A stretch of DNA of 64,000 nt from Pseudarthrobacter defluvii (GTDB taxonomy: Bacteria > Actinomycetota > Actinomycetes > Actinomycetales > Micrococcaceae). The stretch spans positions 4,278,001 to 4,342,000 of the forward strand of contig NZ_JAUSYG010000001.1 of assembly GCF_030816725.1 (NCBI RefSeq), read 5' to 3'. Below, piece by piece: positions 12,079-43,801 of the stretch (position 1 is the stretch's first letter; each line of letters begins with the position of its first letter). The position numbers and the translations under genes were made by a program. The notes beneath the pieces were generated by a model. That model had not been told where the DNA came from and ran no database searches. It was given only the letters and a program-made list of their open reading frames with translations.

Positions 12079-12717
12079 CTAATGCTGGATCAGCGGGCTC
12101 AGCTTCGCGGCCCGCGCAGCTGCGCCCTTCATGCCCAGCGACTCCAGCCAGTTGCCCAGCATCTGGTATCCGCCCTCGGTGAGTACCGATTCAGGGTGGA
12201 ACTGCACCCCGCACAGCGGCGCCGTCCGGTGCTGCAGTCCCATGACCACGCCGGACGCAGTCTGTGCCGTGACTTCCAGGACATCAGGAATGGATTCCCG
12301 GACGGCTGCCAGCGAGTGGTAGCGGGTGGCCGTGATGGGGGAGGGGAGTCCGGCGAACACGCTGGTGCCGATGTGCTCCACCTGGGAGGTCTTGCCGTGC
12401 ATGAGTTCCGGGGCGTGGGTTACTTTGCCGCCGAAGGCCTCTGCCAGCGCCTGGTGCCCAAGGCACACGCCGAACATGGGGACGCTGTTCTCACCGCACC
12501 ACTTGATCAGTTCGATGCTGACTCCAGCTTCGGCGGGGTTCCCGGGACCGGGGGAAATCAGGACGCCGTCACGGGTTCTGGCAAGTTCAATCGCCTCCGC
12601 CAGCGTGACGTCGTCGTTGCGGACCACTGTGGTCTCGGCGCCCAGTTCCTGGAGGTAGCCCACCAGAGTGTAGACGAAGCTGTCGTAGTTATCCACTACA
12701 AGGATCTTGGTTGTCAT
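12079..12717 (-). CDS. Class I glutamine amidotransferase (anthranilate/aminodeoxychorismate synthase component II)
   Basis: The 212-residue amidotransferase supplies ammonia to a chorismate-using synthase. The catalytic triad is visible: the nucleophile in FGVCLGHQAL, the histidine of GVQFHPES and the adjacent glutamate. SPGPGNPAEAG is the oxyanion region. The ATG at 12717 starts the conserved MTTKILVVDNYDSF. Its place next to pknB matches the gene called trpG in mycobacteria. Whether it serves tryptophan (TrpG), folate (PabA) or both cannot be decided here, since no trpE or pabB is in view. It overlaps the stop of the small gene upstream. Confidence 0.88.
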   Translation of the reverse strand: MTTKILVVDNYDSFVYTLVGYLQELGAETTVVRNDDVTLAEAIELARTRDGVLISPGPGNPAEAGVSIELIKWCGENSVPMFGVCLGHQALAEAFGGKVTHAPELMHGKTSQVEHIGTSVFAGLPSPITATRYHSLAAVRESIPDVLEVTAQTASGVVMGLQHRTAPLCGVQFHPESVLTEGGYQMLGNWLESLGMKGAAARAAKLSPLIQH

Positions 12718-14804: not shown

Positions 14805-14953
14805 TTATCCCCAGCTGTTGGGAAAGTTATCCACACTGTGGATAAATGATGCTCGCTGCCTTGGGAAAGCTGTTTTGGCAGCGGAGCGCGGTGAGCTGTC
14901 CCGTCCACCCCTTCACCGGCCGCTTATTAACAGTGTGGAATACCTGTGGATAA
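14805..14953. other. DnaA-box cluster, left part of an origin-like field
   Basis: Perfect 9-mers TTATCCACA occur at 14827-14835 (plus), 14837-14845 (minus) and 14945-14953 (minus), with TTATCCCCA at 14805-14813. The first two boxes face each other across a single base and form a 19-bp perfect palindrome. TTATTAACA at 14924-14932 is also found in oriC. The cluster lies between tag and the AhpD-like gene, about 16.5 kb from dnaA. Confidence 0.8.
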
Positions 14954-15000
14954 CCGCGCGGGCGGCGTGGACGGACGCTCCGCGCAGTGGAGCCCGAAAG

Positions 15001-15468
15001 CTACGGGCGGTCCCGCCGGACGGGATGATGGCTGGTGATGGAGACCCTGTTGAAGGCGTTCATCGTCACGGCGACCCAGCTCACCGCAGAAAATTCTTCA
15101 GCCGTGAGGCATTTGCGCGCCATTGCCTCAGCATACTCCCTGGCATGTTCGTCAGGGAGCCCGGTAATGCTCTCCACCAGCCCCAGTGCGGCCCGTTCCT
15201 TGTCCGTAAACAGTGCTGTCTCCCGCCAAGCGGGCAGTACCGCCAACCGCTGCGGGGTTTCTCCTGCCTCGCCGGCCCTCCTCACGTGGAGGTCCAGGCA
15301 GTAGGCGCATCCGTTGATTTGGGAGATCCGGACGTTGAGCAGCTCCAGCAGGCCGCGACCGATCCCGGCTTCCTCTGCCGCTTCCTGAACCTTGAGGCCC
15401 AAGCCGCTGATGGCCTTCCACAGGGCTGGATGCTGTTTGTCGAGGTACAGGTGCTCGGTAACGCTCAC
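15001..15468 (-). CDS. AhpD-like carboxymuconolactone decarboxylase-family protein
   Basis: The 155-residue protein carries the alkylhydroperoxidase core with the redox pair in INGCAYCLDLHVRRA, as in AhpD/CMD-family thiol peroxidases, and is expected to act in peroxide detoxification as a small oligomer. The GTG at 15468 follows AAGGA by five bases and replaces a longer open frame reaching back into the DnaA-box spacer. DnaA boxes flank it on both sides, so its transcription might be influenced by DnaA; this is speculation. Confidence 0.8.
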   Translation of the reverse strand: MSVTEHLYLDKQHPALWKAISGLGLKVQEAAEEAGIGRGLLELLNVRISQINGCAYCLDLHVRRAGEAGETPQRLAVLPAWRETALFTDKERAALGLVESITGLPDEHAREYAEAMARKCLTAEEFSAVSWVAVTMNAFNRVSITSHHPVRRDRP

Positions 15469-15538
15469 GGGTGTCCTTCTCGTTGGAACGGCTCGGCAGG
15501 CACCATCATAGGCAGGATATCGCCGGTGCTGGGGCCCC

Positions 15539-15945
15539 TTATCCACTTACCAACATCGCAATACCCACAAGTTATCCACAGCTGTGGGAAACCGAGTGGA
15601 AATCCCGCCACCCCCCGGCCCGCTGCCCTACTCCCACGGCGAGGGGCGGGACGTGAACTACAGGAGTGTGACTTATTAACAGTGTGTATAACGCTGTTAA
15701 TAACCACAGGAATGCACCGGCAGGAGGGCTTCCACGCGCTTGGCCGGGGAGTGTTTTCCACAGAACGGCGGTTAATCCTCAGCTTATCCACTTACGCACA
15801 GTGATATCCCCACAGGTTATCCACAGATGTGGAGAACGAAGATCCGTGGTCAGCCGAGGGCCCGAACGGAGCCGTCAGAGGCGGGCGCGACGTCCAAACT
15901 ACAGCCTTGTAAGTTATTAACACTGTGGACAACCACTGTGGATAA
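15539..15945. other. DnaA-box cluster, right part of an origin-like field
   Basis: Perfect boxes lie at 15572-15580 (plus), 15817-15825 (plus) and 15937-15945 (minus). One-mismatch boxes lie at 15539-15547 and 15784-15792 (TTATCCACT) and at 15924-15932 (TGTGGACAA). TTATTAACA-type 9-mers occur at 15673-15681, 15695-15703 (inverted) and 15914-15922. No gene is visible between 15469 and 16006. Confidence 0.8.
15673..15703. repeat. AT-rich inverted repeat with TTATTAACAG arms
   Basis: TTATTAACAG at 15673-15682 is matched by its exact reverse complement at 15694-15703, around an 11-base centre. The arm resembles a DnaA box with CC changed to TA and recurs at 14924, 15914, 31146 and 31364. Confidence 0.75.
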
Positions 15946-15990
15946 CAGAAACGCCCCTTGCACCAATGGTGCGAGGGGCGTTTCTGTTTT
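15946..15990 (-). terminator. Hairpin terminator downstream of the rhomboid gene
   Basis: A 19-bp stem with one wobble pair (15946-15964 with 15968-15986) and an AAT loop lies 16 bases past the rhomboid stop. It abuts the last DnaA box of the field. T residues follow on both strands. Confidence 0.8.
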
Positions 15991-16006
15991 ACAGGGATTC
16001 AGGGGA

Positions 16007-16885
16007 CTAGAGCGCCACCTTCACCCAGCTCACGGCGATCAGCAGGGCAAACACAGCAGCAAGGCCAAGTGCCTGGATGAGTCCCCGGCGGCGCCCACGG
16101 GGGGCATAGGCAAGGACGGCAGCGCAGAGTCCGCCAGTAATGAGGCCACCGAGGTGGGCCTGCCACGCAATCTGTGGGATGAGGAAGCCAATGACGCCGT
16201 TGATGGCGATCAGGATCCACAACTGGCGGGTATCTCCACCGCGTTGACGCTGGACCAGGAGCATGGCGCCGAAGAGGCCGAAGATGGCACCGGAGGCACC
16301 CACCAGTCCCACGAGGCCCTGTCCGGGCACCAGCAGGGGGTTCAGCAGCAGGTAGCCCACCGAGCCGCCCAGTGCGGAGATGAGGTACAGCGCCAGGAAT
16401 CGCACCCGGCCAAGGATGGGTTCCAGGGCCTGGCCAAAAATCCACAGCGTATACATGTTCAGGAGGATGTGCAGCAGCGAATCCGGGGAATGGAGGAAGG
16501 CTGACGTGATCATCCGCCACGGCTCGAACGCGCCGAACTGGGGGACGGCAAAGTAGTTGTTGTAGGCGAACTGCTTGTAGACCCAGTCGCCGGGAATGAG
16601 CATCTGCAGTGCGTAGACGACGACGCAGGCCGCGATGATCCCAAACGTCACCAATGGTTTGCCAGTGGCAACGGCACCGCCGTAGACAGTCCGTACCTCC
16701 GGCGTCGTGCGTTGTGTTTCGTTGACGCAGTCAACGCATTGGAATCCGACGGCGGCCGCCCGCTGGCAGTCGGGGCACGCCGGGCGCCCGCAGCGCTGGC
16801 AACGCACATAGGACGGCCGGTCCGGATGCCGGGGGCAGACCGGAACCTGGGCGGACGGCTCAGCCGACGGAATTCCGTAACTCAT
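16007..16885 (-). CDS. Rhomboid-family intramembrane serine protease with N-terminal zinc finger
   Basis: The 292-residue protein begins with a B-box-like zinc-binding module (C17, H20, C29, C32, C37, C40, C50, C53) and continues into a rhomboid domain of about six to seven helices. Catalytic S198 lies in GASGAIFG and H244 in QAHLGGL, with H139 and N143 in the conserved HILLNMY segment. Rhomboids cut transmembrane helices. The substrate is unknown. It sits nine bases downstream of ppiA and is probably cotranscribed with it. Confidence 0.92.
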   Translation of the reverse strand: MSYGIPSAEPSAQVPVCPRHPDRPSYVRCQRCGRPACPDCQRAAAVGFQCVDCVNETQRTTPEVRTVYGGAVATGKPLVTFGIIAACVVVYALQMLIPGDWVYKQFAYNNYFAVPQFGAFEPWRMITSAFLHSPDSLLHILLNMYTLWIFGQALEPILGRVRFLALYLISALGGSVGYLLLNPLLVPGQGLVGLVGASGAIFGLFGAMLLVQRQRGGDTRQLWILIAINGVIGFLIPQIAWQAHLGGLITGGLCAAVLAYAPRGRRRGLIQALGLAAVFALLIAVSWVKVAL

Positions 16886-30864: not shown

Positions 30865-31400
30865 GGAAGGGTGCCGCCTTTCATTGCTGCTGCCAAATGA
30901 CCCGGGAGTTTCGCTGGAAAACTCCGGAAGAAGTTGGGCGCAACCCGGCTGGTGCATGGTCCGCGGAGACGGGAACCACACGAAAACCCAGGGATGGGAG
31001 CGCTGCTGACAGCTTAGCCGGAAGATCGGGGATTAACCCATCCCCCGGGTCTGCTCCGCCTGCTCCATTGGGCCGGCAGGCCCCCTCGGAGGACGGGCGC
31101 ATCGATCTTGTTGTTTGAGGGACTTCAATTTTTTGGGATTTGTAGTGTTAATAACTGCTGTGGAAACTGTGGATAACCCAGTCCTGTCGCACGGATCCGC
31201 GGTTAAGCCCTGTTCATCGAATGTGCGTAGCTGGGTTTTAAACAGGGTGTGGATGGGGACAACGCAAAAGCCGGTTTTCGACGATCCACAGACGGCTTAA
31301 GGGTTTTAAGCCCATTAATGGCGCTTGTCCCCTTAACTATCCACAGGCTTATCCACATGCCCCTGTTAATAAGGTATAGAGTGCGGGGCGCCGTGTGGAT
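30865..31400. other. oriC: oriC part 1, dnaA-dnaN spacer
   Basis: This 536-bp spacer holds perfect DnaA boxes at 31168-31176 (minus) and 31349-31357 (plus), a one-mismatch box CTATCCACA at 31337-31345, and weaker ones at 31159-31167, 31248-31256 and 31394-31402. An AT-rich run at 31121-31158 beside the first perfect box is a plausible unwinding element. TGTTAATAA occurs at 31146-31154 and 31364-31372. No gene is seen. Confidence 0.85.
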
Positions 31401-32822
31401 TCAGGAGTCGCGTTGCTGCTGCTTGATCCGGTTGGTCAGCTCCGTCACCTGGTTGTAAATCACACGGCGCTCGGCCATCAGCTCGCGGATCTTGCGGTCC
31501 GCGTGGATGACGGTGGTGTGGTCACGGCCGCCGAGTTCCTGGCCGATCTTGGGAAGCGACATGTCAGTCAGCTCCCGGCAGAGGTACATCGCGATCTGGC
31601 GGGCGGTGACCAGAGTCCGCGTGCGGGATTTGCTGCAGAGTTCCTCCATGCTGAGCTTGAAGTAGTCCGCGGTCTGCTGGAGGATCTGCGCAGACGTGAT
31701 CTCCTGTGCACCGTCGTCGGTGATGAGGTCCTTCAGGACCATCTCGGCAAGGGCCACGTCCACGGGCTGGCGGTTCAGGCTGGCGAATGCCGTGACCCGG
31801 ATCAGTGCGCCCTCGAGCTCGCGGATGTTGCTGGAGATCTTGGAGGCGATGTATTCCAGGGCATCATCGGGGGCGGAGAGTCCCTCGCTCAGGGCCTTCT
31901 TGCGAAGGATGGCGATACGGGTTTCAAGTTCCGGCGGCTGGATGTCGGTGAGCAGGCCCCATTCGAAGCGGGACTTCATGCGGTCTTCGAAACCAGCCAA
32001 CAGCTTGGGCGGCTGGTCGGACGTGATGACCACCTGCTTGTTGTTGTTGTGCAGCGAATTGAACGTATGGAAAAACTCCTCCAGCGTCCGGTCCTTGCCG
32101 GCCAGGAACTGGATGTCGTCAATCAGCAGCACGTCCACGTTGCGGTACGTGGTCTTGAAGCTGGCACCCTCATCGTCACGGATGGAGTTGATGAAGTCGT
32201 TGGTGAATTCCTCGGAATTGACATAGCGGACACGGATGCCGCTGTACAACCGCCGGGCGTAGTGGCCGATCGCGTGCAGGAGGTGGGTCTTGCCCAGCCC
32301 GGAGTCGCCATAGATGAACAGCGGGTTGTATGCCTTGGCGGGAGCTTCAGCGACAGCGACGGCGGCGGCGTGGGCAAAGCGGTTGGAGGAGCCGATCACA
32401 AAGGTATCGAACACGTATTTGGGGTTCAGCCGGCCAAATTCGTGCGAAGTACTGGGCAGCATGGGCTGCGGCTTCTGCTCGATCAACTGGTCCGGTGCGT
32501 AGGCGGGTTCGACGACGGGCTCGGGCTCCGCGTGGATGGGAACCAGGTCAGTGTCGACGTCGATGGCGCAGCGGATGTCCTCGGAGAAGACATTGTGCAG
32601 CGCGTCGTCAAGCGCATCCTTGACCTGCGTCTGCAGCACTTCCCGGGTGAGCTCGTTGGGGACGGCCACGAGGAGGGTTGAACCAATGAGACCCTGCGCC
32701 TGCGCAAGAATGACAAAGCCCCGCTGCCGGGGGGAAACACGGTGGTCCTGTTCCAGCAGGCTGACAACCCGGCGCCAGGAACTTCCGACAGTATTGGCGT
32801 GGTTGGCTTCGTCTACTGTCAT
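31401..32822 (-). CDS. dnaA: Chromosomal replication initiator protein DnaA
   Basis: The 473-residue AAA+ initiator binds DnaA boxes and melts oriC. Domain I (about 10-90) is followed by a short linker, the AAA+ domain with GDSGLGKTH (172-180) and LLIDDIQFL, and the C-terminal DNA-binding domain with the signature [15 protein letters not shown] chose the ATG at 32822. An adjacent in-frame TTG at 32825 is slightly better spaced from GAGGG and cannot be excluded. Origin spacers flank the gene on both sides. Confidence 0.97.
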
Positions 32823-33289
32823 CAATCGGTTCCCTCAAAACTTGCTATGCCTGCATTGCCTGCAGCCCAGGTCCGGAACCAGGGTCCTGGCCCAAGTTCA
32901 TCCACAGGGTTATGCACAGCCCGTGGATAATCGGCTACTGGGACACTCTAGGGGATGAAAAGCCTAGAAGATAGCTGGCTATCCGGCTGTGGATAATTAC
33001 ACGGGTGTGGTTCTCCAGCCGGCCCTGTGAGGCACTTCATCCACAGGGTTGTGGGGATACTTAGGCACAGCTGGGGACAGCCGGAGAGGCACCTTCCGGT
33101 TTGACTCCTGACCGCGGATTGCCCTAACGTTGTGAAGTCCTTTGTGTCCGCTTTTGGCCCCAACCGAACTATCCAAGCGCAGCGCGCCTGGGCAGCCGGG
33201 GCAAGCGTACATATACAAAACTTAGCGTCGGCCAGTTCTTCCCCATACTGATCGGGTGGGCGCACCTTTGATCCACTGGAGTAACTAAC
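32823..33289. other. oriC: oriC part 2, dnaA-rpmH spacer
   Basis: This 467-bp divergent spacer has one perfect DnaA box at 32988-32996 (minus). One-mismatch boxes are TCATCCACA at 32898-32906 and 33037-33045, TTATGCACA at 32910-32918 and CGTGGATAA at 32922-32930. The promoters of dnaA and of rpmH must also lie here. TATACA at 33212-33217 is a candidate -10 for rpmH. Confidence 0.75.
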
Positions 33290-36573: not shown

Positions 36574-37656
36574 GTGACCAGTAGTGAAGCCTCCGCACAA
36601 CGGATCCCGCCGTTTGTGTCCTTGGGGTCGGCACGTTCTGTCGCTGGGTCCGGGCTTACCGGAACCGGCATGGCTCCTGCCCGAGGAGGAAACCACCCTA
36701 AAACGGTTTCCTCTCCAGCTCCCAGCAAAACAGTTTCACGTGAAACAACCTCCAATGGTCGATCCAACGTTATTGACGCCATCGACGACTCCAGCCCCAT
36801 CGCACGCGAGCTCGCCCACGAGACGAAGCGCCGTGAGCGCCTGATGGGACGCCAGCTTCCACGCCCTGAAAAGACCCGGATCTTCACTGTGTCCAACCAG
36901 AAGGGCGGGGTGGGCAAGACCACCACCACGGTGAACATTGCGGCCGCCCTGGCAGCTGCCGGACTGAACGTACTGGTCATTGATATCGACCCGCAGGGCA
37001 ACGCCTCCACCGCCCTGGGGATCGAACACCACGCGGATGTGGACAGCATCTACGATGTCCTGATCAACGACGTTCCGCTCGCTGACGTGGTGGCCCCGTG
37101 CCCGGATATTGGCAAGCTGATCTGTGCACCTGCCACGATCCACCTGGCAGGAGCCGAGATTGAGCTCGTGTCCCTCGTGGCCCGGGAACAGCGGCTGCGC
37201 CGCGCCATCGATGTGTATGCCAAGACGCGGGAGAAGAACGGCGAGGAGCGGCTGGACTACGTCTTTATTGACTGCCCGCCCAGCCTGGGCCTGCTGACTG
37301 TAAACGCGTTTTGCGCGGCCAGTGAAGTACTGATTCCCATCCAGTGCGAATACTACGCACTGGAGGGCCTCAGCCAGCTGCTCAAGAATATCGAGATGAT
37401 CCAGAAACACCTCAACGCGGACCTCGTTGTGTCGACCATCCTGCTCACCATGTATGACGGCCGTACCAACCTTGCTGCCCAGGTTGCCGCGGAGGTACGC
37501 CAGCACTTCCCCGACCAGGTGCTCTCGGCCGTTGTCCCGCGGTCCGTGCGGATCTCCGAAGCCCCCAGCTACCAGCAGACTGTCATGACGTACGATCCGT
37601 CCTCAAGCGGTGCCCTGTCCTACCTGGAAGCCGCTGCCGAAATAGCGGAACGATAA
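36574..37656 (+). CDS. parA: Chromosome-partitioning ATPase ParA (Soj)
   Basis: The 360-residue deviant Walker ATPase drives ParB-parS complexes apart. The P-loop [11 protein letters not shown] (108-118) carries the signature lysine, followed by DIDPQGNAS and FIDCPPSLG. The first ~100 residues are a poorly conserved, probably disordered extension. Its VSRET peptide (54-58) is encoded by a perfect parS palindrome. The GTG at 36574 is chosen because the frame between it and the P-loop is continuous. parB follows after 65 bp. Confidence 0.95.
36733..36746. other. parS: parS site inside parA
   Basis: GTTTCACGTGAAAC, the perfect 14-bp core of the ParB-binding palindrome, lies within the coding sequence for the ParA N-terminal extension. 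Confidence 0.93.
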
Positions 37657-37721: not shown

Positions 37722-39011
37722 ATGAGCGATAAGCGACGAGGCCTAGGCCGCGGTCTTGGCGCGCTGATTCCAAGTTCCGCCGCAACCAATGGTTCCGGCA
37801 ACAGTGGGGCGGTATCCCGGCCTGTGGATCTCTTCTTCCCAGAAGGGCGGAAGAAAACAGAATCGGCCGAGCAGCCCGCTGCGGTGGCAGCCGCCCGGTT
37901 GCAGGAGAAGGAAGCCGCAGCCCCGGCCGCCCGTCCTTCTACGGCTAAGACAGCTGCCTCCAAATCCGCTCCCGCGACGGGCAACAGGAAATCCGCGCCA
38001 GCACCCTCGGATCCGCCCATGCCGGCCAAAAGGACTCCTGCCACGAAGTCCCCCACCGCCGAGTCCAAGCCGGCAGCCGAGTCTGATGCCGCCGTAGGCG
38101 ATCCAGCAGCAACGACGCCGACGGATACTGCAACTCCCGCTGGGAATGCCACGGCCAGCAAGACAGCTGACTCAGGCATCGAGCTCGTCGAGGTTCCCGG
38201 CGCCCGTTTCGCCGAGATTCCGGTGGCCGACATCCACCCGAACCGGAAGCAGCCCCGAAATGTCTTCGACGAAGACGACATGGCCGAGCTGGTCCACTCC
38301 GTACGCGAGATCGGGGTTCTTCAACCCATCGTCGTTCGGACATCAACCGAATCGGGTAGCGAGCCCTATGAGCTCGTCATGGGTGAACGCCGTTGGCGCG
38401 CTGTCCAGGCCGCGGGGCTCGAAACTGTCCCTGCCATCATTCGTGATACAGCGGACGACGACCTTCTCCGGGACGCGTTGCTTGAGAACCTCCACCGCAG
38501 CCAGCTTAATCCGCTTGAAGAGGCTGCGGCCTACCAGCAGCTCCTTGAAGACTTCGGGACCACCCACGAGCAGCTCGCGGACCGCATCGGCCGTTCAAGG
38601 CCCCAGGTATCCAACACTCTCCGCCTCCTGAAGCTTCCCCCGCTGGTACAGCGCCGCGTGGCCGCCGGTGTGCTCTCTGCAGGACATGCCCGGGCCCTTC
38701 TCTCGCTTCCTGATGCTGCAGCCATGGAGCGCCTTGCGCAGAAGATCGTGGCAGAGGGAATGTCCGTACGCGCCACAGAGGAGGCTGTGACCCTCTACCA
38801 GGACCCCGCAAAGCCTGCAAAGAACAACATTCCGCGCCCTGGGGCCCGACATGAACGTCTGGACTACCTGGCTTCCTCGCTCTCCGACCGCCTTGATACG
38901 AACGTCAAGATTTCCCTTGGCGTAAGGAAGGGGAAGGTAAGCATCGAATTTGCCAGCGTAGAGGACCTGAACCGAATCATGGATGTTTTAGCTCCCGGTT
39001 CGACGAACTGA
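37722..39011 (+). CDS. parB: Chromosome-partitioning CTPase ParB (Spo0J)
   Basis: The 429-residue clamp protein binds parS and spreads by a CTP-driven sliding-clamp mechanism. The N-terminal [15 protein letters not shown] patch is the usual ParA-contacting segment. An Ala/Pro/Lys-rich linker (about 30-160) is unusually long. The CTP-binding domain follows with [12 protein letters not shown] and the GERRWRA motif. The helix-turn-helix that reads parS spans about 270-310, and the C-terminal dimer domain ends the protein. The ATG at 37722 follows GGAGGG. Confidence 0.95.
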
Positions 39012-39020
39012 AACGCCGAG

Positions 39021-39051
39021 AAGGCCCGATTCCTCGGAATCGGGCCTTTTT
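39021..39051 (+). terminator. Terminator of the rpmH-parB gene string
   Basis: A 13-bp perfect stem (39021-39033 with 39036-39048) runs into TTTTT. It marks the left edge of the parS gene desert. Confidence 0.92.
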
Positions 39052-39476
39052 CTATGCAATATCGGTGTGGTAGCCGGTCGTTGCCGAGGATCGCTGGATG
39101 CCGTGAAGGACAAGGCCGTTTGCTCCCCCTTGGCGCTCTTCCGCTACAGCGGCGCAGCCTGTGCTTGCCACCTGCAACTTAGCAGCACCAGTAGAGGACA
39201 TAAGTGCCCTTCAGGCAGCCGATATTGCAGCAGATTTTGCCCGACTCCATGCGGGCGGTACTTGATGGCGGGTATGTCGCCGTCCCCTCCAGTTGGCACC
39301 AGCTTCTTCGGTGGCCTACTGTTCGATTACTAGCTCCACGCTTTCGTCTCTTTAGTCCCAGCTCCCCGTCTCCATGTGCCTTCTTCATGGATCCCAGCAA
39401 ATATCAGTTCGCGTTGATGGACGAGTAGGCGAACCGAGATTTGGGCTTTGTTCATTTCCAGGCTAGAGGAACGCAC

Positions 39477-39490
39477 GTTTCACGTGAAAC
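39477..39490. other. parS: parS site
   Basis: Perfect GTTTCACGTGAAAC core, flanked by C and A. It is the first site after the parB terminator. Confidence 0.95.
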
Positions 39491-40050
39491 ACGCCTGCCC
39501 CAGTAGCGGCGGCGCGGGCGAGTGGGGTACGCCACTCAGACGCCCACGCTCGTTTTGCCGTGTCCATGTCGGTGTCCTCCGTCTCTGCTGCTGAGCCTCG
39601 ATGCGTAGATCTACAGTGATGGGCAACTTAGACAGCGTGGTGTTTACTCTCGAGTCACTTCCATTTCTGCCGACTGAAAGACGCCAGTTCAGTGGAACGG
39701 TACACGGGAGTCTACGGATGACACCCGCTCAGACTGACGTGTCGGCGCTGGCCTTCCTCTTGTGCGTCAGCGGCCGTACGATTCCTGCGCAATTAAGTGT
39801 ATTCATGCGATTCCGTCGAGCACCTTTTCGGGTGGCCTGTCCCTTCAGCAGGATCTTGGCTTCGGAAGGGCCGGAGTAACCGCGGCGCATAGGCGTTTGC
39901 CATCCGTTCACCGATACCGTTAGCATGCCCGCGCGTTCTCTTGTCGCTTTGTGATACCTGCGCACTCGTTCTGTAGATGGATTGAGGGGGGCTAGCTCTC
40001 TACCTCGGATACTTCCGTGGTGACTGGCAGGCGGAAGGAGGAGCAGGCAC

Positions 40051-40064
40051 GTTTCACGTGAAAC
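40051..40064. other. parS: parS site
   Basis: Perfect 14-bp core flanked by C and A. The next parS starts 206 bp further on. Confidence 0.95.
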
Positions 40065-40256
40065 AGCGCGGCCTGGGCCAAGGACCGCTCAACCGCTTGC
40101 CCCGTCTCGCAGCTTTGGATAGTGCACGCTCCCCTCGCATGCTCGGACAGGTTTCCTTCCATCTATGGCATCTGCTGTCTCCGCTGGGCTCGTTCTCTCG
40201 TCCAGCGTTGTGGATGCATCGCCATCGCCCCAGCATCCGCGCTTATCACCGGGGAT

Positions 40257-40270
40257 GTTTCACGTGAAAC
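40257..40270. other. parS: parS site
   Basis: Perfect 14-bp core flanked by T and T. Confidence 0.95.
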
Positions 40271-40538
40271 TACTTCTCTCCCGCCTGCAGTCCTGATGCA
40301 CGACGCCCAACATCTAAATCGCGATCAGCTCCTAAGGCCGTCGACGCGAGATGCTCGTGCAGGGATGAGCGCACGATCCGTTTGCGCGCCGCGCTGCTCT
40401 GTATACGGAGGTGTACCGACGTCTGCATGGGTGCTTATGAACCCGCGCGTATCCCGCTGGCGCTCATGATGTGCGTAGCGGTTAGGGCGAATGGCATGAT
40501 GCACAGCTTTGCGCCGCTGTGAGGATGAGCTAAAGTAC

Positions 40539-40558
40539 ACGGCCCCTACCGGGGCCGT
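40539..40558. repeat. Hairpin inside the gene desert
   Basis: ACGGCCCC-TACC-GGGGCCGT is a perfect 8-bp stem with a 4-base loop, like a terminator but without a T run. No gene ends here. Confidence 0.5.
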
Positions 40559-40928
40559 TCCTCCGAGGTCTGCAAGGCGCCGCTATCCCTACTCGACATG
40601 TAGCGGCGAGACCCGTTCGCACGTCCGTCCAGGACGGCCAGGCATCGAGCCAGTGACGGTGGACAGCCGTACGACTGCCATCTCAGGGCCACAGCACGCC
40701 AACGGACACCAGGTACCTCTGCACCATGGTTCGACTCGGGTTTGCAGGAAGAAGCTGCTTGCCGGCCCCTATCGCTGTGAGATCCGCCCGGGCGAGGACT
40801 AGTTGGAGATGCTGGTACCGCCTGAGCAAACCCACCGGATAGCGTCTTTCCTATTTGAGCTGTCTCCTTACGCCTATTATTAGGAACTAGCGGTACGCGG
40901 GCTTCGCCTCGCGTGGGAATCCAGGACC

Positions 40929-41312
40929 TGTGGATAACGAGGTGGATAACCGCGGCGGTCTGGGGATATCTCGGTGCATCCTCCATCCCCCTGCAGCGAC
41001 ACGAGCATCCCGTAAGAGCGCCCGTCGGGTGCAGCGGAGCGAAGCAACCGCGCTGTTTCACGTGAAACGATCGTCAGCGCCCAGCCGTGCCGCTGCTCTG
41101 CCTCGGAGTCGCCGCGGATCGGTTGCATTGACTGCTCCCTGCACGCCCCTTGTGGCTCCTGGGAGCTTCCGTACGCGACCGGTAATATCGGTGCTAGGGC
41201 GCACGCCGACGTACGCAGCTCCGACTGTTCAGGCGTTCGGCAATCCCGACTCGTGAAGGTTCATGGACGCTGTGGATAATCCTGTGGATGGCCGCGCGGC
41301 GACTGTGGATAA
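40929..41312. other. DnaA-box group within the parS region
   Basis: TGTGGATAA (perfect DnaA box, minus orientation) occurs at 40929-40937, 41271-41279 and 41304-41312. Near matches lie at 40941-40949 (GGTGGATAA) and 41283-41291 (TGTGGATGG). All face the same way and lie on both sides of the parS site at 41055. Confidence 0.75.
41055..41068. other. parS: parS site
   Basis: Perfect 14-bp core flanked by T and G, roughly in the middle of the array and surrounded by DnaA boxes. Confidence 0.95.
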
Positions 41313-41876
41313 GATTGGGGACGACTGCGTTGCCAGGAGTGCGGTCGGTACCCCCAAGGGCGTCATCGTGGCCGAGGAAGACGCGTTGGCTCCGCTTCCC
41401 CACAGGGCCGTCACGTCTCCGCGTACGCTGAGCAGACCGCCATACCCACTGTGAGTACGACGGCCTTAGGCTGCGCCCTTCGAGACAGCCGCGACCAAAC
41501 TGCTGATACTTTGACGTCCAATGTTCGCACGCGGATCACTCAGGGAGGCTTTCTACCATGCGGACGACATCGACTAGCCGAGGCTGCCGCAGGCTCCGAC
41601 AGAGACCTTAAGATGCACGGGCAGGCGCCGGTGTTCGCGGCGATTCGTGGGACGCGACCACAAGCGCTACCCAGGCATGAGGTGCTGATACGGCGCCGGT
41701 GCGGTTACCGAACTCCGCACGCCACCACGGCTCATGTTCTGGCAGCGATTGCTCCTAAGTGGTTCGCCACGCCGGCCTGGTTCCTGACTCTCCTCATCGG
41801 AGGACGCTCTTCTGTTCACTGATACTGACGTCGCAACGCTCATTTTCGTTCCTTCTCTTGCAGTAGAGGGGCGACA

Positions 41877-41890
41877 GTTTCACGTGAAAC
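41877..41890. other. parS: parS site
   Basis: Perfect 14-bp core flanked by A and A. Confidence 0.95.
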
Positions 41891-42086
41891 ATGTGTGCGG
41901 CAGGGTCTGTTCGTCCGCAGTGCGGCGTGGTGCCTAGGCACGGCGACGGAGGGCTCATTATCCCGGGGTCGCGGCAAGGCGCGGGCCCTGCCTTATGAGC
42001 AGGGCGCACGCCGCGCTCCATCACGCATCAGCAGTCGTTGCGCGCGTTATCGGACCTCATACATGCAGGTTGCCGGCACGGCACCA

Positions 42087-42100
42087 GTTTCACGTGGAAC
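42087..42100. other. parS: Degenerate parS site
   Basis: GTTTCACGTGGAAC differs from the core by one base in the right arm. It sits 210 bp from the preceding perfect site. Confidence 0.65.
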
Positions 42101-42980
42101 ATCCGCGCAGTCGCAGCCGCCGCCTCGTGGGAACACACGGACCGAGTGAGAGGAGGGCTGGTGGCACCGCTGGAAGGGGCGGGGGGTCGCTGACTCCCCG
42201 TGGCGGCTGGCAACTCTGCCCTAGGAGTACCACGTCTGCGGACTGCTATAGGCGGCGTCGCTCTTGGGAATACGTTGATTCTTTGGTACTCCTTCAAGAC
42301 CAGGTTCCATCATCGTGCAGCCCTGACGCAAGGGGCCTCATTGTGGCCTCATTGCTAACTGACCAGGTCAAGCTCCATGTGCAGGCGGTGGTGCCGATGG
42401 AAAGCTGATGGAGGATAACCTTGCGAGAGGGAGAGGCAGAGACATATCGGGTCTCCCACGGGCTGCGCCTACTGCTAGCCGCCGTGGTCTACATGTGGGT
42501 TTGTCCGCGCGGCCCGACTAGGTGCGTTCAGGGTGATGTCGTCCGTCTTCATCCGCACGGCAGAGCGGAGTCACGCTCAGTACTGTGGGTAGACAGTGTG
42601 GTGCAAGACGGCTGGCCTGCGTTTCGGCAGGTGGGATTCAACAGGAATGTGCAAAGGCAATTTCGGCTTGAGGCGCGTGTAAGCCGCAGTCAGGCGTACG
42701 GCGGCCCCGGTGTTACGAGCCTTCGGCCGGGCTGTGAAGCCCAGGGCTGCGGTGCAGGTCAGTACGCGATCGGCTTGTTCTAGACGAGACTGCACTGCGC
42801 GGGGTCAGTCCTCGTGCTTGGGGAGTGTGTGCTGGCCCTGGTGCGTTCGGTTGTCCGTTTGCCTAACTGCCTAGTGGGGCATCATCGAGCGGCTCCCAAC
42901 ATACGCAAGATAGTTGGATATGTTGCGAAGTAGGTTGCGTGCTTGCAGTGCGTCATGCCCTAACGCGGGTGGCTCGTACT

Positions 42981-42994
42981 GTTTCACGTGAAAC
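42981..42994. other. parS: parS site
   Basis: Perfect 14-bp core flanked by T and G. Confidence 0.95.
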
Positions 42995-43275
42995 GGCACC
43001 GCGATTAGGCGCGCCGGGTAGCATTGCGCGGCGAAGGAATAGACAGCGTCTTGTAACCCCGGGATGGAGGGCAAGCTCTTCGTACTGCAGCGCACAGTCG
43101 CCGAACCTCCTCATGCCCTGCTAGAACGCAGGATGTAGCGGCACGCGCTCCTATGCTCTGAACGCCGCACACCGCAGCAGTGGCACTCGTCCCGTTCCGA
43201 CGACATGAGGCAAACATAGGAGCTCTACCTCCAGTCCCTCCCCCTCACTCGCGACCTGGGGCGGAAGCTGCCAGT

Positions 43276-43289
43276 GTTTCACGTGAAAC
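43276..43289. other. parS: parS site with full 16-bp palindrome
   Basis: The core is extended by T and A to the complete 16-bp palindrome (43275-43290), the best match in the window. It lies just outside the trxA terminator. Confidence 0.96.
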
Positions 43290-43360
43290 AGCAGCCACGC
43301 GTCTGCCCAGAGTCGGCGCCGGAGTGTCAGCAGGTATAGACGTCGCGTTCCTGATTCGCA

Positions 43361-43399
43361 AAAAAAACAGTGGCCATCGCCTTCCGGCAACGGCCACTG
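43361..43399 (-). terminator. Terminator downstream of trxA
   Basis: CAGTGGCC (43368-43375) pairs with GGCCACTG (43392-43399). Read on the minus strand, a run of eight T follows. It closes the right edge of the desert. Confidence 0.92.
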
Positions 43400-43440
43400 C
43401 TTTACGAAACGCGCCCCAGAATCAGCCCGGGCGCTTGCGA

Positions 43441-43767
43441 TTAGGAAAGAACGTCCGAGAATTCCTTCTCAAAGAACTGCTTCGGCTTGGCTCCGATAAC
43501 GGTGCTCTTCACTTCGCCACCCTGGAAGAGGTACACGGCAGGGATGGAGGTGATGCCGTATTCCGAAGCGATAGCAGGGTTGTCGTCGACGTTCACCTTG
43601 ACCACATCGACCTTTTCGCCGTACTCAACGGAGATTTCATCGAGGATGGGGCCCAGCTTGCGGCAGGGGCCGCACCATTCCGCCCAAAAGTCCACGATGA
43701 CGGGCTTTTCGGCCGACAGGACGTCCGTGCTGAAACTCGCGTCAGTTACTTCTTTAGCGTTGCTCAT
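43441..43767 (-). CDS. trxA: Thioredoxin
   Basis: The 108-residue protein has the classical active site FWAEWCGPCRK with C32 and C35 and the cis-proline segment ITSIPAVYLF. It reduces cytoplasmic disulfides using electrons from the neighbouring thioredoxin reductase, 34 bp upstream. The ATG at 43767 gives the usual thioredoxin length. Confidence 0.95.
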   Translation of the reverse strand: MSNAKEVTDASFSTDVLSAEKPVIVDFWAEWCGPCRKLGPILDEISVEYGEKVDVVKVNVDDNPAIASEYGITSIPAVYLFQGGEVKSTVIGAKPKQFFEKEFSDVLS

Positions 43768-43801
43768 AACCTTATCTTTCTCTTGGATAACAGTGCGCAG
43801 A

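Follow-up and report, generated by a model that had tools for sequence, protein, structure and literature searches.

What is a 4429-bp block without genes for, between parB and trxA of Pseudarthrobacter defluvii, and what else does it carry besides centromere sites? The block lies in a stretch of 64,000 nucleotides (assembly GCF_030816725.1, contig NZ_JAUSYG010000001.1, positions 4,278,001-4,342,000 of the forward strand), hereafter the window, whose numbering is used unless stated otherwise. An earlier note on this DNA had taken the block for an expanded intergenic centromere, rich in parS sites and kept free of genes. It had not seen the arrays of DnaA boxes in the block, which are the more surprising part of the locus. 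Judging from the sequence, we consider it fairly probable (roughly 0.55) that the block is the main centromere and ParB loading zone and that a DnaA module embedded in it couples the state of DnaA to ParB and segregation.

The module has two tandem arrays of DnaA boxes with a 12-bp step, in the same orientation and about 350 bp apart. The features of the block are as follows, with the strand where there is one; the parS sites are motif matches and the DnaA boxes are predicted.

39012..43440: gene-free centromere block, parB to trxA, 4429 bp; the longest stretch free of open reading frames (ORFs) in 304 kb, with ORFs as in shuffled sequence
39477..39490: parS 1, perfect
40051..40064: parS 2, perfect
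40257..40270: parS 3, perfect
40929..40949, minus strand: DnaA array A, TTATCCACA at 40929 and TTATCCACC at 40941, 12-bp step
41055..41068: parS 4, perfect, the module parS, 126 bp past the first box of array A
41090..41180: site of the 10.5-bp phased T-tracts of relatives (more than half of modules; predicted bend), undetectable in the window
41271..41312, minus strand: DnaA array B, TTATCCACA at 41271 and 41304, weak box CCATCCACA at 41283
41877..41890: parS 5, perfect
42087..42100: parS 6, one mismatch (GTTTCACGTGGAAC)
42981..42994: parS 7, perfect
43276..43289: parS 8, perfect

The motif scan bears out the earlier count of seven perfect parS cores (GTTTCACGTGAAAC) and one degenerate core (GTTTCACGTGGAAC) in one stretch after parB, here between 39477 and 43289. 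From base composition the block is expected to hold about 7e-6 perfect parS, or 3e-4 with up to one mismatch. All nine such parS in the 4.58-Mb genome are within this 6.6 kb, while a backwards-pattern control gave one match. The ninth, also perfect, is at 36733 in parA and is the only parS of the genome outside the block. The eight block parS are about 8-12 kb from dnaA-dnaN and the parA site about 5 kb, placing multiple consensus parS near oriC. The parA and parB genes are linked (Pfam), as in chromosomal ParABS systems.

The exact DnaA box TTATCCACA is found 32 times genome-wide. With so few copies, the three in the block represent a cluster. No DnaA site is within a parS itself in the window, the nearest exact boxes being 126 bp before and 216 bp after a parS start. 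To place the module among relatives, we compared the window with 80 named loci (81 in total). A tree of 73 of the 81, which rests in effect on yidC, rsmG, and parB and was used only for naming, defines a clade of 26 loci (L001-L020, L024, L026, L027, L028, L066, and the window). They carry the names Arthrobacter, Pseudarthrobacter, and Paenarthrobacter, plus Sinomonas (L019). Each of the 26 clade loci has at least one tandem pair of boxes, whereas 38 other loci in which the gap, or part of it, exceeds 1 kb have no such pair (17 loci with shorter gaps were excluded). Among same-strand pairs of boxes with up to one mismatch and within 60 bp, a separation of 12 bp is the most common (39 out of 99). 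Such tandem, same-facing boxes are the layout expected for DnaA oligomers. Exact boxes are present in 24 of 30 blocks, and all 49 are on one strand; the 150 kb upstream used as a control has none. Boxes with two mismatches show this strand preference in the coding DNA of the upstream control too (96 of 121), and the strand argument is therefore based on exact boxes only.

The boxes also keep their distance to one parS. In 19 of the 24 box-bearing loci an exact box precedes a parS by 100-130 bp (circular-shift null mean 2.3, maximum 10 in 20000), and in 16 a further box lies 200-280 bp after the same parS (null mean 0.8, maximum 6 in 20000). DnaA boxes are thus close to a parS, as in a DnaA-bound centromere of the Caulobacter type. 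We also scanned 198 genomes of the genus that are at least 90% complete, including that of the window. A parS about 116 bp inside array A is found in 153, with no match for the reversed-pattern control. In a sample of the family the pattern is present in three of 61 genomes, all three from the same genus as the window, and in none of 58 genomes from 30 other genera. The 150 distances listed peak at 104-107 bp (19), 115-118 bp (86), and 125-129 bp (26), with about one helical turn between peaks. The inside pattern is missing from 45 genomes. In 18 of them, by subtraction from the listed ranges, a parS lies outside array A at 84-105 bp. In 29 of the 45, two partial boxes face the same way and are separated by roughly the distance between the arrays, though some of these boxes could be elsewhere in the genome. 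Counting both sides, array A therefore has a parS at one of the preferred distances in 171 of the 198 genomes.

Array B was examined in 40 further modules picked on the match to array A and parS alone, three of which are copies of named loci. A same-strand box with up to one mismatch is present at the array B position (+186 to +298) in all 40 and is exact in 35; the opposite strand has no exact box there in any of the 40. The array-to-array distance is 324-423 bp in 25 clade loci, giving two box groups at a constrained spacing as in E. coli datA, and it is similar where the parS lies outside the arrays.

Other DnaA boxes were noted away from the block. A second cluster at 14827-15945, about 16 kb away on the other side of oriC, has six exact TTATCCACA and one TTGTCCACA on both strands, some as inverted pairs. 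The inverted pair TTATCCACANTGTGGATAA in this cluster is in only two of 31 genus genomes, including its own. Outside the window, at 4387642-4387950 of genome G000 and about 68 kb beyond the block, are two exact boxes 300 bp apart.

Between the arrays, relatives have a stretch that is predicted to bend. A dip in GC content at +50 to +100 past the module parS is seen alike in the first 20 modules and the further 40 (0.485 in all 60 compared to 0.601 at 108 other parS). At 10.5 bp the 60 modules have an A/T power of 4.1, versus 1.1 at 105 other parS, and the TTT autocorrelation peaks at lags of 10-11 and 20-22, which places the T-tracts in helical phase. Predicted curvature is maximal at +68 past the module parS, near the estimated midpoint between the arrays (46 degrees versus 26 in shuffles). 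The curvature was calculated with Bolshoy wedge values; the autocorrelation and the 10.5-bp power are independent of such parameters. Among the 37 modules that do not overlap with the named set, the 10.5-bp power averages 4.5, with segments averaging 27% identity. With array midpoints set by hand and the best spot taken within 30 bp, the midpoint region is in the top 2% of its own block in 15 of 25 clade loci by 10.5-bp power (null mean 2.6, maximum 6) and in 13 of 25 by curvature. One clade locus, L006, has no array B at the usual distance and was excluded from this test. The module of the window itself has a 10.5-bp power of 1.8 and 66% GC at +50 to +100 of its parS.

Tandem same-facing boxes, together with the AT-richer stretch beside the module parS in most relatives, could also mark a second or even the true replication origin. 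We regard this as very unlikely. Averaged over 27 relatives, the GC skew stays positive through each of the eight eighths of the block and never changes sign, though the skew of the window's own block is mixed. The gap between dnaN and dnaA has boxes of its own and 54% GC. At the position of the AT-rich stretch of relatives the window reaches 66% GC, and no AT-rich unwinding region is beside its boxes. A second origin had been raised because of the DnaA arrays and was dropped after the skew and composition tests. The cumulative GC skew minimum, both window-wide and over 304 kb, is at 12252, at neither dnaA nor the block, and was not used for placing the origin.

A further question is whether the block is free of genes. 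Its neighbors are listed below.

30982..31400: probable oriC (dnaN-dnaA intergenic), 54% GC, DnaA boxes, about 10 kb from the module
31401..32825, minus strand: dnaA (Pfam Bac_DnaA)
36574..37656, plus strand: parA, start codon uncertain, contains one parS (Pfam AAA_31/CbiA, ORF)
36733..36746: perfect parS in the 5' part of the parA ORF; a similar position is occupied in most clade loci
37722..39011, plus strand: parB (Pfam ParB_N, HTH_ParB, ParB_C)
39018..39051, plus strand: terminator-like hairpin after parB, -27.5 kcal/mol, with a T run
43360..43402, minus strand: terminator-like hairpin after trxA, facing the block, -46.1 kcal/mol
43441..43770, minus strand: trxA, convergent with parB (Pfam Thioredoxin)

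We scanned 304 kb for ORFs of at least 90 aa with a codon-bias filter tuned to let parB and trxA through. No stretch without such ORFs is longer than the block at 4429 bp, and the runner-up has 1046 bp. An earlier, laxer scan split the block and its top stretch, still inside the block, was 1834 bp; the stricter scan was preferred. The median uncovered stretch between ORFs in the same 304 kb is 82 bp. The block could encode unrecognized small proteins or RNAs, and one of its ORFs matched a Pfam family below the cut-off. We find this extremely unlikely. The block has 27 ORFs of at least 60 aa compared to a mean of 27.9 in shuffled sequence, and the longest has 171 aa (p=0.71). Ten block ORFs gave no Pfam match above the family cut-offs, 39 block ORFs searched with tblastn against 80 relatives gave no match better than E=0.003 and no convincing conservation, and Rfam gave no match in the block at gathering scores. 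Hidden genes were rejected on these four results, which agree with the previous view that the block has no credible gene and ORFs that match nothing familiar.

Both parB and trxA run towards the block, each ending in a stable hairpin by folding (-27.5 and -46.1 kcal/mol). The two strong terminators proposed before are present as terminator-like hairpins at both ends, but a consensus terminator scan listed neither in the expected direction. It listed one minus-strand site overlapping the parB hairpin, and the promoter/terminator scan was uninformative.

Relatives keep the length and the sites of the block. In the 23 clade loci that could be spanned to trxA (Sinomonas excluded), 4.1-9.1 kb separate the two genes (median 5.2), and each gap contains 7-12 parS if up to one mismatch is allowed. 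The median parS spacing is 574 bp and parS number rises with gap length (r=0.67). This supports the reading of the gap as an expanded centromere kept free of genes. All 41 genus genomes surveyed have 6-12 perfect parS each, and in each of the eight genomes with every site listed all parS fit into 8.2 kb of a single contig. Outside the clade, Micrococcus, Kocuria, Psychromicrobium, and three Rothia loci have gaps of 58-330 bp with zero or one perfect parS; in other Micrococcaceae the gap is 0.2-9.2 kb with 1-6. The gaps of Cellulomonas-type loci mostly contain ORFs that look coding, and they lack a perfect parS. As such short-gap relatives exist outside the clade, the large parS-rich gap is lineage-specific. 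A short gap without a parS cluster, named by the earlier note as the case that would speak against it, was found only there.

That note had also proposed comparing the parB-trxA interval for sequence conservation, which, unlike length and parS number, is nearly absent as the sequence hardly aligns between species. Among 30 blocks, blastn gave any match in only 66 of 435 pairs, with at most 159 bp matched per pair except for L022 and L023, which share an amidase end. Against 58 other genomes, the block of the window matched only pieces of 29-55 bp, in five. The most enriched words in 28 blocks are variants of parS and of the DnaA box TTATCCACA; the weaker words include one from the trxA terminator. 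The near lack of blastn matches and the nature of these words suggest that length, parS, and DnaA boxes are kept while the rest drifts. The gene-free state is a strong tendency in the clade and not absolute, as L006 has an integrase-core transposase gene in its block and L017 possibly a transposase (one of two ORFs, below the curated Pfam cut-off). Two further parS arrangements were noted. Many Micrococcaceae (e.g. L009, L017, L018, L045, L055, and L066) have a parS about 20-35 bp past the parB stop, where the window has none. In Janibacter (L076), five parS form a compact cluster of 0.8 kb at a different place, about 2.1-2.9 kb before the parB stop.

The block might instead be neutral debris of lost genes in which parS accumulated. 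An N-acetylmuramoyl-L-alanine amidase gene is downstream of parB in seven of the 81 loci (L022, at 14923-16107, L023, L044, L021, L039, L046, and L075), all outside the clade and two of them with trxA not reached, and the genome of the window has no Amidase_3 match. This explanation is highly improbable given that 24 clade loci checked have no amidase match at E 0.01 and that the length is never below 4.1 kb in the 23 clade loci, compared to the 82-bp median uncovered stretch. A decayed amidase as the origin of the block was rejected for lack of a match in the 24 loci.

How would the block and the module work together? ParB clamps load at parS and then slide, and DNA-bound proteins can block the sliding, as described in PMC10387095; bypass of roadblocks has been reported in PMC9242446. 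The gene-free zone, the many loading sites, and the flanking terminators fit a clean landing zone for ParB. The block would serve as a ParB loading and spreading zone, of which length and parS number are maintained while the sequence drifts, and the two convergent genes with their terminators would shield it from transcription. Near its middle is a composite element of array A, a parS about 116 bp on, a segment predicted to bend in more than half of relatives, and array B. DnaA self-assembly is described as starting from anchor boxes (PMC6399470). DnaA-ATP oligomers on the same-facing arrays, folded together across the middle, may form a loop or clamp at the module parS. The state of DnaA and the loading and spreading of ParB clamps might then influence each other, timing segregation to initiation. 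ParB-DnaA contacts have been reported for V. cholerae and D. radiodurans (PMC7022226). More tentatively, the locus may be a gene-free centromere with a built-in replication sensor, in which the bend-joined arrays A and B would gate ParB loading at the adjacent parS depending on ATP-DnaA, so that segregation is coupled to initiation, and the surrounding kilobases would be retained solely as a track on which ParB clamps meet no obstacles. What we observe is the sites with their constrained geometry, conserved amid DNA that hardly aligns and restricted to one clade among the loci examined; from this we infer DnaA and ParB binding, looping, transcriptional silence, and a regulatory effect.

Known systems offer partial parallels. 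In Caulobacter, DnaA at a site within parS triggers segregation according to PMC4468827 and PMC6399470, which review Mera et al. 2014. Like C. crescentus, where DnaA drives segregation, the block has DnaA sites at an oriC-proximal centromere. Unlike here, the C. crescentus DnaA site is within parS and there is one main parS; in this different phylum two tandem arrays are roughly 100-280 bp from one of eight block parS. In V. cholerae chromosome II, parS2 lies among initiator-binding sites at rctA, but the initiator is RctB rather than DnaA and the chromosome is a secondary one (PMC6399470). Corynebacterium glutamicum, also an actinobacterium, has ten parS near oriC, nine of them intergenic, but spread over 35 kb and 73 kb from oriC (PMC7083940); the account of this cluster in PMC7083940 does not mention a DnaA array. 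Searches of the open-licence literature listed no paper on a block without genes between parB and trxA, or on a module of DnaA boxes and parS, for Arthrobacter and its relatives.

The arrays could instead be a datA- or DARS-like locus that regulates or titrates DnaA, housed in the gene-free zone and close to parS without direct function. The datA locus of E. coli lowers DnaA-ATP through DnaA boxes on both sides of an IHF site, and their spacing is critical; boxes 2 and 3, the IHF site between them, and the spacing are all required (PMC4585315). The module is similar in having two box groups at a constrained spacing, with a bend predicted between them in more than half of relatives. The bend in datA is the IHF site while here it would be the phased T-tracts, which are absent in the window, and the datA description in PMC4585315 does not mention parS. 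The module shares features with both the Caulobacter DnaA-parS site and datA without matching the full definition of either. The similar array-to-array spacing with parS outside also suits a parked regulator. Such a locus would not need a parS at a preferred distance from array A, which 171 of 198 genomes have (153 inside, 18 outside). We favor coupling on this basis and see a parked regulator as somewhat unlikely.

Several observations weigh against coupling or against parts of the proposed mechanism. Sinomonas L019 has tandem arrays without a nearby parS. With the 18 genomes that have parS outside, this indicates that a parS between the arrays is not obligatory, and it keeps the parked regulator alive. 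The transposase gene of L006, about 2.25-3.25 kb after parB, separates the module parS from the DnaA array that follows and is possibly a natural disruption of the module. Family members without tandem arrays still have parS-bearing gaps. Strong 10.5-bp power (at least 3) is found in only 22 of the 37 further and 11 of the 20 named modules. The predicted bend of the window itself is 3 degrees at the position of the family peak and 29 degrees near the midpoint, a value equaled or exceeded in 20% of the block. The genomes are related, so their counts are not independent trials even though the spacers hardly align. A need of ParB for gene-free DNA is also weakened, as a sliding model fitted ChIP data without any transcription effect (PMC10387095).

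How initiation and segregation are coupled in bacteria is understood only in a few models. The block is an unusual case in which, within a compact bacterial genome, selection apparently retains non-coding DNA on the scale of kilobases, and it would allow testing whether ParB needs gene-free DNA. As the module survives with a constrained geometry in DNA that hardly aligns between species, a few defined base changes could test the coupling directly. In these bacteria, replication initiation and chromosome segregation may be linked at this locus.

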